From Phycisphaerae bacterium RAS2 (GTDB taxonomy: Bacteria; Planctomycetota; Phycisphaerae; UBA1845; UTPLA1): a stretch of DNA of 64,000 nucleotides. The notes under the pieces are model-generated. The model ran no database searches and had not been told where the DNA came from. It worked only from the letters and a program-made list of their open reading frames with translations. The stretch's first letter is position 1. Each line of letters begins with the position of its first letter. Both the position numbers and the translations under genes were made by a program. The DNA lies in contig CP036352.1 in assembly GCA_007753915.1 (NCBI GenBank), forward strand, positions 1,860,001 to 1,924,000, in the 5' to 3' direction. Positions 20,582 to 32,915 of the stretch are shown here, piece by piece.

Positions 20582-20788
20582 ATGAAACCGGTCAAGGTGT
20601 CACCCAAGTTCCAGGTCGTCATTCCGCAGGAGGTTCGCGAGGCGATGAAGCTCGCTCCCGGCACCTCGGTGCATGTGTTCCAATATGAAGATCGTATCGA
20701 GTTCATTCCGCAGCAACGGCTCAAGAAAATGCGGGGCTTCCTCAAGGGCATCGACACCCGCGTGCCGCGCGAGAAAGACCGCGTATGA
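20582..20788 (+). CDS. AbrB/MazE-type antitoxin (VapB-like)
   Basis: A 68-residue antitoxin. The sequence KVSPKFQVVIPQEVREAMKL is the classic swapped-hairpin AbrB/MazE/SpoVT DNA-binding domain; the C-terminal 25 residues (after IEFIPQQR) are basic and charged, as in segments that wrap the toxin. It would neutralise the PIN toxin encoded next and, with it, repress their shared promoter. The stop overlaps the toxin start by four bases (ATGA), so translation is coupled. Confidence 0.92.
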   Translation: MKPVKVSPKFQVVIPQEVREAMKLAPGTSVHVFQYEDRIEFIPQQRLKKMRGFLKGIDTRVPREKDRV

Positions 20789-21162
20789 ACGTGGTCGATT
20801 CATCAGGCTGGTTGGAATACTTTGCTGACGGCCCCAATGCCCAATTCTTCGCCGGGGCGATTGAGGCGACGGACAAGCTGCTTGTGCCGGCCATCTCGGT
20901 CGCCGAGGTTTTCAAACGGGTGCTTCAGCAGCGGAGCGAGGATGAAGCGCTGCAGGCTGTCGCGCTCATGCGACAGGGAACCATGGTGGAACTCGACTTC
21001 TCGCTGGCGCTTCACGCCGCCAAGCTGGGCCACGAGTTGAAGCTGCCACTGGCGGACAGCATTATCCTGGCGACGGCTCGAGCGCACGATGCGACTCTCT
21101 TCACGCAGGATTCTGACTTTGAGGGGATCGAGGGCGTGCAGTTTATTTCGAAGCAGCCCTAG
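20785..21162 (+). CDS. PIN-domain toxin (VapC-like)
   Basis: A 125-residue PIN-domain ribonuclease. The acidic active site is intact: Asp5 in VVDSSGW, Glu41 in ISVAEVFKR, Asp91 in LPLADSII and Asp109 in TQDSDF. VapC toxins usually cut initiator tRNA or the sarcin-ricin loop of 23S rRNA, stopping translation; the target here is unknown. It overlaps the antitoxin gene by four bases. The DSSGWLEYF variant belongs to the branch paired with AbrB-type antitoxins, consistent with its neighbour. Confidence 0.92.
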   Translation: MNVVDSSGWLEYFADGPNAQFFAGAIEATDKLLVPAISVAEVFKRVLQQRSEDEALQAVALMRQGTMVELDFSLALHAAKLGHELKLPLADSIILATARAHDATLFTQDSDFEGIEGVQFISKQP

Positions 21163-21266: not shown

Positions 21267-22436
21267 ATGGCCGCGAAGACAACCGAGCGCTCCAGCACAT
21301 CAGGCAAATCAGCCGGCAAGTCGCGCGGCGCCTCCCGCTCCGCACGCAACGCCGCCACCGCGCAAAAGATCGTCGGCCTTGCCGAGTCGGTCGTGACCCA
21401 CGCCGCGAAGAAGAAAGACCCTGCCGTGGACATCCCGTTGCGCACGCTCTCCAACGCGCAGTACAACCCGCGCAAGCGCATCATCGAAATGGGCGACAAG
21501 GCCCAGTCGCGCAGCTTCTTCAACCTCGGCATGGCCAAGAGCTTCATGCAGACCGTGCTCATCGCCAGCGGCTGCAAGAAGCTGATCGACGAGGACAAGA
21601 CCGTCAGCATCCGCGGTCTGTATTACCTCACCAAGCACACCATCCCCGGCACGACGGAGAAGACTTTCAACGATCAGGACGAGAGCGACCCGATCATCGA
21701 GGACCTCGAAGTCGCCCTGGAGAGCCTGCGCGAAGAGCTGCACGTCTTCGCGAGCAGCCGCGGCACCATCGCCGGCAACCTCACCGTGGTCAGCAAAGGC
21801 GACGAGATTGACCTGCGCCGCATGGGCAGCGGCGGCTGGGGCATCCCCGGCATCGTCGAGCCGGACATGCTGCAATTCAAAAAGTGCGAGGCCAAGTACA
21901 TCCTCCACGTCGAGAAGGACACCGTCTGGCAGCGCTTCAACGAGGACAAATTCTGGCAGAAGAACAATTGCATCATCACCCACGGCAACGGCCAGCCGCC
22001 GCGCGCCGTCCGTCGGCTGCTCTTCCGCATGCACGATGAGTTGAAGCTGCCGGTCTATTGCCTGCTCGATAACGACCCGTGGGGGTACTACATCTACAGC
22101 GTCATCAAGCAGGGATCGATCAACCTCGCCTTCGAGAGCAACCGCATCGCGATCCCTGACGCGAAGTTCATCGGCGTGCGCAGCCGCGACTTCGAGGAGT
22201 TCGGCCTGTCCGACGACGTGAAGATCGCCGTGGACGACAAGGACCTGAAACGCGCGAAGCAGATCATGGAATACCCGTGGTTCAAGGGCAAGAAGGAGTG
22301 GATGAAGGAAATCGACGCGATGATCAAGCACGGCTTCAAGATGGAAGTCGAAGGCCTGCTGACCAAGAGCATTTCGTTCGTGACGGAGACGTACGTGCCG
22401 CAGAAGTTGAAGAAGCAGGGGGTGTGGTTGGATTAG
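21267..22436 (+). CDS. DNA topoisomerase VI subunit A-like protein (Spo11 family)
   Basis: A 389-residue homologue of the DNA-cutting subunit of type IIB topoisomerases. A Ser/Lys/Arg-rich tail (about residues 1-50) precedes a winged-helix (CAP) region with the catalytic tyrosine, Tyr120, in TVSIRGLYYLTKHT. The Toprim domain has its Glu216 in ILHVEKD and its Asp pair (268, 270) in LLDNDPWGYY. Archaeal topoisomerase VI works as A2B2 and needs ATP-binding subunit B; no B gene lies in this window on either side. Codon use is strongly biased to C/G-ending codons. GAGGGA sits before the ATG. Bacterial members are rare, so gene transfer from archaea or an older bacterial lineage is possible. Whether it relaxes DNA alone is unknown. 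Confidence 0.88.
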   Translation: MAAKTTERSSTSGKSAGKSRGASRSARNAATAQKIVGLAESVVTHAAKKKDPAVDIPLRTLSNAQYNPRKRIIEMGDKAQSRSFFNLGMAKSFMQTVLIASGCKKLIDEDKTVSIRGLYYLTKHTIPGTTEKTFNDQDESDPIIEDLEVALESLREELHVFASSRGTIAGNLTVVSKGDEIDLRRMGSGGWGIPGIVEPDMLQFKKCEAKYILHVEKDTVWQRFNEDKFWQKNNCIITHGNGQPPRAVRRLLFRMHDELKLPVYCLLDNDPWGYYIYSVIKQGSINLAFESNRIAIPDAKFIGVRSRDFEEFGLSDDVKIAVDDKDLKRAKQIMEYPWFKGKKEWMKEIDAMIKHGFKMEVEGLLTKSISFVTETYVPQKLKKQGVWLD

Positions 22437-31034: not shown

Positions 31035-31142
31035 GCCGTCCCGCGGTTGACGGTGCTGCGAGCTTCTTCTTCAGGCGGGTGGGCCCGCGTGAATCGCGCG
31101 GCCGGATCGCGTAGAATTCCCATTGTGCCGCGAATCACTGAA

Positions 31143-32915
31143 ATGCATTGGCAGGGGCGATTTTTCAAGCGCGTGTTCTCGCGCCTCGGAGCGCTCTTGT
31201 GCGTGGGCATGTTGCTGGTCTGCGCGGTGACCTGGCAAATCATGCACCGGTGGCTGGCCGGCTACACGCAGGATCAGATCATCAATCAGGCGCATCTGAC
31301 GAAACTGGTGATCGAGCGGCAATGGCCGCTGGATGGTGAAGCGCTTCAGCGCGAATGCGACCTCATGCATGAACTGACTCTGCTTCGGCTGACAGTCATG
31401 TCGCCCGATGGCCGCGTTATTGCGGATTCGAATGCGAATCCGACGGAGATGGAGAATCACTCCAAGCGCCCGGAGGTGGTGGCGGCGCTTGCGGGCCGCA
31501 TCGGGCAGGACCTTCGCAAGAGCAGCTCGGTTGGAGAGGATTTTGTCTACATCGCGATGCCGCTCGTTCACGAGGGGCGTCTGGCTGCCGTGGTGCGTGC
31601 GGCGGCGCCGGCGGCCGACCTCAAGCGTCGCGAAGAAGCGCTCGTCAAGTGGATCACGATCGGCCTGGCCATTGCGATTCCGCTGGCTCTGCTCGGTGCC
31701 TGGGTCTTGTCCAAGGCGCTGGCCCGGCCGGTGCAGCGAATCAGTGTACTGGCGAGGCGACTGTCTACGGGCGACTTGCAGGATCGCGTCGAAGTCGGCG
31801 GGGACGACGAAATTTGGCAGGTGGCCGAATCGCTGGAGACAATGCGGGAGAATCTGCTCGCGCGCGTACGCGAGGTCCAGCAACAGAGAATGGATCTGGA
31901 GGTCACGGTCAGCCACCTGGAAGAGGGCATCATCACCGTCGACCGTGCGGGGCTGGTCCTGACGGCCAATGACGCAGCGCGCCGGCTGCTTGCGGTGGAT
32001 TCCCCTTTGTTGGGGCGACTTTTGTCGGAGCAAATTTCCAACGAGGCGTTGCGAGACATGTGGACCGAAGCGCTTGCGGCCGGTCGCCCGGAGCTTCGTC
32101 GCGAACTGAAGCGCAGCAAGGTCCCGGGCGCAGCGCAATTGAGTGTGACGATCATCCGTGTGACCGAGCCTTCGACGCCGATTGCATGGTTGATTTGCAT
32201 TCGGGACATCACGGCTTTGGCGCGTTCAGCGGCGATGAAGACGGACTTTGTCGCCAACGCTTCGCACGAGCTTCGCACGCCCGTAGCGAGCATTCGTGCC
32301 GCCGTGGAGACGCTCAACGCCGACGGGCTGGATCGCGAGATGACCCGCCGATTCATGTCGGTGATCGCGCGCAACGTAGAGCGGCTTCAGAATCTTACGG
32401 AAGACCTGATGGACCTGAATCGCGTCGAATCCGAGTCGCCCGATCTATCGGTTCGGCGATTTCGGCCCGACGAAGTCTTCGCGTCGATTCGCTCGGTGTT
32501 TGCCGAAGCGCTTCGTCAGAAGAGCGTGCGGCTGGAATTCTCCAACGAGGTGGAAGAGCTGGAGACCGATCCGCGTTGGCTTGAGCTGGTGCTGAAAAAC
32601 CTCGTCGATAACGCCGTCAAGTTCGTCGGCATCGGCGGACGAATCGAGATTCGTTGTCGGCACGAAGGCGACATGGCGCGGTTGGACGTCGAGGACAACG
32701 GCTGCGGAATTCCGAAAGCGGATCTGGAGCGTGTCTTCGAACGGTTCTACCAGGTGGACAAATCTCGTCGCGTCGGCATCGGCGGCACCGGCCTGGGGCT
32801 GGCCATCGTCAAACATGCCGTGCTGGGCATGGGCGGCGAGGTCTCCATCGCCAGCGAAGAGGGCCGCTTCACGCGCGTCAGCTTCACTGTCCCGGTTGCA
32901 GCCGTTCCTGTTTGA
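31143..32915 (+). CDS. phoR: PhoR-like sensor histidine kinase
   Basis: A 590-residue membrane kinase partner of the response regulator. Two helices (about residues 12-35 and 167-190) flank a periplasmic sensor domain of about 130 residues. Then come a HAMP segment (ISVLARRLSTGDLQDRVEVG), a PAS-like region (ITVDRAGLVLTANDAARRLL), the HisKA box with the phospho-His in NASHELRTPVAS, and the ATPase domain with DNGCGIPK and GGTGLGLAIVKH. Known PhoR/PhoPR kinases have this order. The start is uncertain: ATG 31143 is chosen because the first helix follows directly; a GTG at 31125 is possible, and the frame runs back to 31047. It lies just downstream of the regulator, in one transcription unit. Confidence 0.88.
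   Translation: MHWQGRFFKRVFSRLGALLCVGMLLVCAVTWQIMHRWLAGYTQDQIINQAHLTKLVIERQWPLDGEALQRECDLMHELTLLRLTVMSPDGRVIADSNANPTEMENHSKRPEVVAALAGRIGQDLRKSSSVGEDFVYIAMPLVHEGRLAAVVRAAAPAADLKRREEALVKWITIGLAIAIPLALLGAWVLSKALARPVQRISVLARRLSTGDLQDRVEVGGDDEIWQVAESLETMRENLLARVREVQQQRMDLEVTVSHLEEGIITVDRAGLVLTANDAARRLLAVDSPLLGRLLSEQISNEALRDMWTEALAAGRPELRRELKRSKVPGAAQLSVTIIRVTEPSTPIAWLICIRDITALARSAAMKTDFVANASHELRTPVASIRAAVETLNADGLDREMTRRFMSVIARNVERLQNLTEDLMDLNRVESESPDLSVRRFRPDEVFASIRSVFAEALRQKSVRLEFSNEVEELETDPRWLELVLKNLVDNAVKFVGIGGRIEIRCRHEGDMARLDVEDNGCGIPKADLERVFERFYQVDKSRRVGIGGTGLGLAIVKHAVLGMGGEVSIASEEGRFTRVSFTVPVAAVPV

Follow-up and report, generated by a model that had tools for sequence, protein, structure and literature searches.

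The 64,000-nucleotide stretch of DNA analysed here (the window) carries a topVIA gene that very probably encodes, together with a distant topVIB on the same chromosome, a complete topoisomerase VI with a split locus, in which the A subunit and the docking hairpin of B seem to form an exchangeable module. The initial annotation had regarded the gene as an orphan; its observation of the gene itself was confirmed, and the enzyme is a topoisomerase VI of familiar type whose genes are, unusually, far apart.

The window topVIA gene and its distant partner

The topVIA open reading frame is real, and Tyr120 of the RGLYY motif, Glu216, Asp268 and Asp270 lie where they were initially annotated (Table 1). 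Its product matched the Pfam models PF21180 (TOP6A-Spo11 Toprim, 1.1e-59), PF04406 (TP6A_N, 2.7e-15) and PF20768 (all-beta domain, 4.1e-6), and scored 553.5 bits against the curated equivalog NF003333 (cut-off 465), a topoisomerase VI A-type model although it is named topoisomerase IV subunit A. Sequence comparison with the PDB returned 2zbk_A (8.1e-77), 2q2e_A of M. mazei (9.6e-48) and 1d3y_A (2.3e-46), where we take 2zbk and 1d3y to be the S. shibatae and M. jannaschii topoisomerase VI structures. The AlphaFold model of the window A (pLDDT 74.5) aligned with M. mazei Top6A 9o0g_C at Z 32.6 and rmsd 3.8 over 349 residues, and with 2zbk_A at Z 28.5 and rmsd 3.0 over 331. We then inspected an alignment of 55 A rows, comprising 45 planctomycete genomes (the window's included), 5 second copies and 5 archaeal chains. 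The Y120 column holds tyrosine in 53 rows and a gap in two, both of which are excised segments from divergent second copies, and the adjacent Y119 column varies to phenylalanine in several rows, which identifies Tyr120 as the catalytic tyrosine. As in topoisomerase VI, the subunit thus combines a winged-helix catalytic tyrosine with the Toprim glutamate and DxD pair. The strong codon bias noted initially is also real (GC3 0.91); since one of nine neighbours tested has an equal value (0.91) and topVIB reaches 0.83, it is a weak sign of the good expression that had been read from it.

Table 1. Coordinates of the features discussed (window positions unless a locus or contig is given)
Feature	Position	Strand	Basis or remark
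topVIA, topoisomerase VI subunit A, type 1	21267..22436	+	389 aa; Pfam, NCBIfam, AlphaFold model fold
Catalytic Tyr120 codon (winged-helix domain)	21624..21626	+	alignment column
Toprim Glu216 codon	21912..21914	+	55/55 alignment rows
Toprim DxD pair codons, Asp268-Asn269-Asp270	22068..22076	+	both Asp columns 55/55 rows
topVIB (P0002)	G000:C1 about 3,212,233-3,214,329		698 codons from first TTG
Short ORF before the PIN-domain ORF	~20582-20788		presumed AbrB/MazE-type antitoxin
PIN-domain ORF	20785-21162	+	5.9e-19
Histidine kinase ORF	31047-32915		HATPase_c 5.1e-31
Second A-like ORFs	L189: 1642-2535; L191: 1452-2801	-	Toprim E and DxD
B of viral contig L210	4004-5674	+	adjacent to A
A of viral contig L210	5679-6830	+	adjacent to B

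A search of the genome with the TopVIB transducer model PF09239 gave a single place, at ~3.213 Mb on the 4.32 Mb contig that also carries topVIA, so that topVIA and topVIB stand 1,331,542 bases apart on one chromosome (HMM match starts). The full-length ORF found there, whose true start probably lies downstream of the first TTG, combines a GHKL ATPase with a topoisomerase VI transducer domain (HATPase_c 1.9e-12; PF09239 3.2e-57) and scored 536.2 bits against the NCBIfam top6b equivalog TIGR01052 (cut-off 380.7); its best PDB match was M. mazei 2q2e_B (8.5e-158), over the whole M. mazei core. The distances of the window's A and B to their type-1 relatives (defined below) agree (r 0.72), and the hairpin of this B scored as type 1 (71.7 bits) with no match to the type-2 profile, so the distant B fits the window A. 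A topVIB on the same chromosome with matching distances and hairpin means that the window gene is no orphan, and on finding it at 3.21 Mb we dropped the orphan and Spo11-like readings; a topVIB of matching phylogeny elsewhere in the genome was what the initial annotation itself had said would overturn its proposal. Of the partners it had envisaged, the one located elsewhere is what we found.

The statement that no B subunit or GHKL ATPase is encoded within 20 kb proved right as to topVIB and wrong as to the fold, since one ORF there is a GHKL-fold histidine kinase and no topoisomerase VI partner. It is the sole GHKL-fold ORF among nine scanned neighbours, and replacement of the partner by another ATPase is accordingly unsupported. 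The ORF immediately upstream of topVIA has a PIN domain; before it comes a short ORF that to us reads like an AbrB/MazE-type antitoxin, and the two likely form a type II toxin-antitoxin pair.

Collectively, the window A and the distant B make up, on sequence evidence, a complete topoisomerase VI, with complex formation and strand passage predicted. The two would assemble as a conventional A2B2 enzyme in which B binds ATP and dimerises, the transducer stalk and terminal helical hairpin of B move the winged-helix domains of the A dimer, and the A dimer, through Tyr120 and the Toprim acids, cuts both strands of one duplex while another passes. Archaeal topoisomerase VI (M. mazei 2Q2E/9O8P, S. shibatae 2ZBK, M. 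jannaschii 1D3Y) shares the winged-helix tyrosine, Toprim acids and near-whole-chain fold of A and the GHKL and transducer sequences of B, and a stalk and hairpin are likewise predicted in a model of a related B (locus L109). The window enzyme differs in its bacterial host, in the 1.33 Mb between its genes, and in that its A is nearest to S. shibatae A whereas its B is nearest to M. mazei B; unlike M. mazei B, it has Pfam matches for transducer and HATPase domains and none for an Ig-like C-terminal domain. Some type-1 B proteins carry variable transducer insertions, from ~30 residues in the window B (~454-490) to >60 in G167 and G121, as noted at L155 and L175/L176; in Pirellula staleyi topoisomerase VI a helical bundle at the transducer is described (part of PMC11302465).

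The name topoisomerase VIII is used for type IIB enzymes encoded by plasmids, whether free or integrated (part of PMC11302465). None of nine ORFs scanned with Pfam at the window locus is a plasmid gene, and both subunits have topoisomerase VI equivalog scores. A mobile or plasmid origin was considered and rejected: a phage collection held no A match, and three plasmid records did, two of them haloarchaeal on inspection and the third (Salinibaculum) haloarchaeal by name. In the two inspected haloarchaeal plasmids the gene order is likewise B then A.

Topoisomerase VI and type IIA enzymes across the Planctomycetota

We surveyed 294 Planctomycetota genomes, many of them incomplete MAGs, and matched A in 133, B in 136 and both in 132, so that the subunits co-occur in 132 of the 137 genomes having either. 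The initial description of topoisomerase VI as an enzyme chiefly of archaea and plants no longer holds, given 133 genomes of this phylum with a match to the A Toprim model; the enzyme has been listed in at least 17 bacterial families (part of PMC11302465), and its presence in planctomycetes is already published (PMC11302465).

In 109 of the 132 genomes the genes form a same-strand pair within 5 kb (HMM match starts) with B upstream, and in two more the spacing is 5.6 and 6.8 kb. Four genomes, the window's and G127, G167 and G287, have A and B on one contig with 481 kb or more between them, and in 17 the two are on different contigs, where an assembly break and a real split look alike. The window genome has no topVIB directly upstream of topVIA, and the usual B-A pair is split in its lineage. 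The nine closest relatives of the window A (L067-L075; 71-82% identity; labelled planctomycete, Planctomycetota, Planctomycetaceae or Phycisphaerae/Phycisphaerales) showed no B in their fetched flanks, eight of which include 3.5 kb or more on the upstream side, enough to reveal a paired B. All but three (L077, L111, L146) of the best 80 named relatives are labelled planctomycetes; B was seen in 35 of these 80 loci, always upstream and on the same strand, and many of the remaining 45 are on short contigs. The 98% complete genome G172, a near relative, gave a match to neither subunit.

We next considered the type IIA enzymes. The window genome has one place matching PF00521 (GyrA/ParC) and one matching PF00204 (GyrB/ParE), with no second type IIA pair that could be topoisomerase IV. 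Given that gyrase is present and topoisomerase IV homologues are absent, topoisomerase VI is probably the dedicated enzyme that decatenates the chromosome in this organism. M. mazei topoisomerase VI has been characterized as a preferential decatenase (parts of PMC8837201 and PMC9348778).

The phylum shows a related pattern. Among 155 better genomes (at least 90% complete, at most 5% contaminated; two B-only genomes left out), those with both topoisomerase VI subunits had one GyrA/ParC copy in 72 cases and two or more in 9, whereas those without had one in 27 and two or more in 45 (Fisher p 2.4e-11), with related genomes counted as separate and ParC taken together with any second GyrA. Over all 294 genomes, one copy, two or more, and none were found in 112, 16 and 4 of those with topoisomerase VI and in 70, 84 and 3 of those without it, five further genomes having a single subunit. 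Topoisomerase VI and a second GyrA/ParC copy thus tend toward mutual avoidance, which is not absolute. The swap recurs inside families (e.g. f20, f37 and f72), and in f5, which belongs to the window's class, all four of the genomes sampled (G111, G185, G231, G242) are without both topoisomerase VI subunits and have two GyrA/ParC genes, an apparent exchange of topoisomerase VI and topoisomerase IV. The nearly complete genomes G217, G248 (f49) and G172 have no topoisomerase VI and a single GyrA/ParC gene, so that gyrase may suffice for them; in other f49 genomes there are two copies.

We presume that Anaerohalosphaeraceae, Sedimentisphaeraceae, Lacipirellulaceae, Pirellulaceae and Thermoguttaceae are families of the Planctomycetota. 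These families are reported to have topoisomerase VI and gyrase and no topoisomerase IV, as the window genome does, and for topoisomerase VI-bearing families outside Pseudomonadota and Terrabacteria, which are without topoisomerase IV, a decatenase role has been proposed (part of PMC11302465). To the part of that account used here, the present analysis adds the split locus, a count over the whole phylum, two A types on one B body and the type-matched hairpin.

Two A types and the docking hairpin of B

Identity to the window A is bimodal: 43 genomes, the window's included, fall at 50-64% or self (type 1), 90 at 31-37% (type 2) and none between. Both types occur in the window's own class. M. jannaschii A shares 53-60% identity with type-2 A and 33-39% with type-1 A, which in turn shares 39-46% with S. 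shibatae A; the archaeal references comprise five A and four B sequences only. In a tree of 31 planctomycete and four archaeal A sequences, the type-2 sequences come together as a clade (100/99) and those of type 1 join S. shibatae (100/99); a single planctomycete A clade is rejected (AU p 0.0015). Because S. shibatae is a long branch, its affinity with type 1 is insecure; the identity gap between the A types is independent of where it is placed.

The B subunits do not follow this division. In 30 tree genomes B is 45-60% identical to the window B regardless of A type. Tree path lengths among 45 genomes have medians for A of 1.56 (within type 1), 1.27 (within type 2) and 4.95 (between types); those for B are 1.51, 1.48 and 1.74, and the median A/B ratios are 1.01, 0.84 and 2.86. 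Inside each type, the distances of A follow those of B (r 0.62 and 0.66), a correlation that none of 2000 permutations reached.

When B columns were compared between types, the separating positions concentrated in residues 593-640 of the window B (mean divergence 0.48 against 0.10-0.17 elsewhere, Mann-Whitney p 1e-17). All four columns fixed at 80% or more per type (594, 598, 628 and 632) lie in this block, and among the 506 well-filled B columns none elsewhere is so fixed; lowering the threshold to 60% gives 15 differing columns, of which the block holds 6, and at 50% the numbers are 30 and 8. Control clades of the B tree showed no like concentration at 80%, although columns 594 and/or 598 do turn up for the clades of 27 and 17 rows, in which the bulk of type 1 falls, and column 612 is the one block position for each of two small clades. 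Over sliding windows, identity across types tracks that within types to ~590 and then drops to 30% and 20%. Identity within types 1 and 2 and across them is 61.0, 58.3 and 57.3% over residues 98-560, 56.5, 53.8 and 48.1% over 561-592, and 38.1, 47.3 and 17.8% over 593-640, where single pairs overlap (cross-type maximum 33%; within-type minima 20% and 26%).

The hairpin in this block is what binds A in M. mazei cryo-EM structures (part of PMC13040014), and in the model of the L109 B (mean pLDDT 73.1) the block is predicted to be the end of the stalk helix 451-499 plus a helix at 507-525 (pLDDT ~59-72). Tail profiles built from the 45 genomes assigned each of 56 held-out loci (37 of type 1, 19 of type 2) to the right A type, which, since these loci are all relatives, amounts to consistency and not to 56 independent events. 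The loci came from a set of 111, of which 66 had B and from which 7 belonging to training genomes and 3 without a known A type were set aside; the 37 of type 1 derive mostly from one similarity search with the window A. Haloarchaeal, M. mazei and S. shibatae B tails, the last two incomplete, matched neither profile. We found no report of two A types or a type-matched hairpin in searches that covered the open-access literature and few subscription papers, and as far as these go, two A types on a shared B body with a type-matched hairpin are new.

Further A-like genes accompanied the survey. Three genomes of one family with a type-1 topVIA (G171, G141 and G076; loci L189, L191 and L190) have, in addition, a divergent A-like ORF that retains the Toprim glutamate and DxD pair. 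The two of these searched whole matched the Top6A Toprim model (8.8e-30 and 1e-25) and gave no TP6A_N winged-helix match in Pfam, and the G076 copy keeps a tyrosine aligned with Y120. The L189 ORF overlaps a putative Uma2 endonuclease ORF (2.4e-38) by four bases, with an unrelated ORF set alongside. These second proteins look more like true orphans than the window A does. An adjacent B and A were also seen on the 482-kb viral contig IMGVR_UViG_3300028558_000016 (L210), whose B is 32% identical to the window B and whose A is 36% identical to a type-2 A and 28% to the window A.

Origin of the match between A and hairpin

Whole-length B places type 1 in one clade (99/99; SH-aLRT 99 with 45 genomes), whereas B without the hairpin (98-585) mixes the types, with five to six changes and a type-1 clade in 0 of 200 bootstrap trees. 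In the hairpin-less tree the type-1 G033 joins the type-2 G208 (97/93), a pair that is 63% identical in the B body, 19% in the hairpin and 34% in A. The nearest row is of the other type for 4 of 45 B bodies and for none of 45 hairpins or 45 A subunits. AU tests against one clade were borderline (p 0.044 for type 1, 0.056 for type 2, 0.067 for type 1 without S. shibatae). The one type-1 clade obtained with whole-length B fits a single event, and the types mix only after the hairpin is removed; the borderline AU values do not firmly argue against a single exchange.

Because the B body is not sorted by A type, A and hairpin seem to have been exchanged as a cassette, and the type match, which also holds where A and B are unlinked, as in the window genome, indicates that it is kept by selection. 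A and the docking hairpin therefore seem to behave as one exchangeable module, and the pattern suggests repeated exchange. On the simplest reading of the sequences, hairpin and A may have travelled together through recombination close to where topVIB ends at its 3' side. In a B-A operon, where topVIA directly follows, such a crossover would exchange both at once, and a foreign A (~33% identical) would then sit on an unchanged ATPase body. That a single crossover near codon 590 brought in a foreign hairpin with the adjacent topVIA several times, and that a chimera of this kind was the ancestor of the split enzyme in the window genome, is a plausible account that we advance tentatively. Two scans of viral contigs yielded no archaeal donor; they returned one contig with a type-1 pair (L209/L211) and the large viral contig L210.

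Replacement of A alone, followed by residue-by-residue re-adaptation of the B hairpin, would also produce matched types. The divergent block is just the A-docking element (part of PMC13040014), where selection alone could focus change; matching holds for unlinked genes including the window's, and whole-length B is one type-1 clade. However, the break is abrupt, with cross-type identity falling from 48.1% over 561-592 to 17.8% over 593-640, and type-1 hairpins are alike even on bodies nearest to type 2 (G033-G208), which would require repeated re-adaptation if the body tree is right; we regard this course as possible, if somewhat doubtful. Alternatively, two whole B-A operons may have come from different archaea, with B bodies alike by chance and no exchange inside bacteria. 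At least two archaeal transfers have been proposed for both A and B (part of PMC11302465), and the affinities of type-2 A to M. jannaschii A and of type-1 A to S. shibatae A agree with this. Yet the B bodies of all 45 planctomycetes group together, apart from three archaeal B (98/95), very few archaeal B being compared; cross-type body identity (57.3%) nearly equals that within types; the types mix in the body tree, if with borderline AU support; and archaeal A and B trees both broadly follow taxonomy (part of PMC9348778), all of which makes such double transfer unlikely.

Action of A without B, as a Spo11-like break maker or a Toprim nuclease like JetD of Wadjet, would suit a topVIA that stands alone at its locus, and the Toprim and winged-helix folds are common to Spo11 (8urq_A of the core complex, Z 18.6, rmsd 5.0, 302 aligned) and partly to JetD (7til_B, Z 8.8). 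In PADLOC the Toprim part of the window A matched JetD weakly (25.3 bits, 1.7e-6). The JetABC/Mks genes that stand alongside JetD/MksG in Wadjet are nevertheless missing at the window locus, with no Jet/Mks protein among the eight ORFs flanking topVIA on both sides, and a defence nuclease was dropped as a candidate, this match of A itself having been its sole support. In Spo11 systems the partner B is without a recognisable GHKL domain, as in yeast Rec102, whereas the window genome encodes a full B with a GHKL ATPase, making the enzyme one of topoisomerase VI type as judged from its domains. B distances track those of A, the subunits occur together in nearly every genome having either, A exceeds the NF003333 cut-off, and its best alignment is to archaeal Top6A, ahead of Spo11. 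The Spo11-like or nuclease-like role initially suggested is thus unsupported, and action of A alone is very improbable.

The type-matched hairpin, carried in the window genome by the distant B, makes this enzyme family more interesting than the orphan finding did. It constitutes a natural experiment in which a cutting subunit only ~33% identical appears to have been swapped in and the same ATPase would still drive it. The exchangeable-module reading predicts that swapping ~50 residues of B would re-target it between A types, and such a hairpin swap would test how ATP is coupled to DNA cutting in topoisomerase VI and, by analogy, perhaps in Spo11. The avoidance between topoisomerase VI and a second type IIA enzyme across the phylum bears on the role of topoisomerase VI in bacteria.
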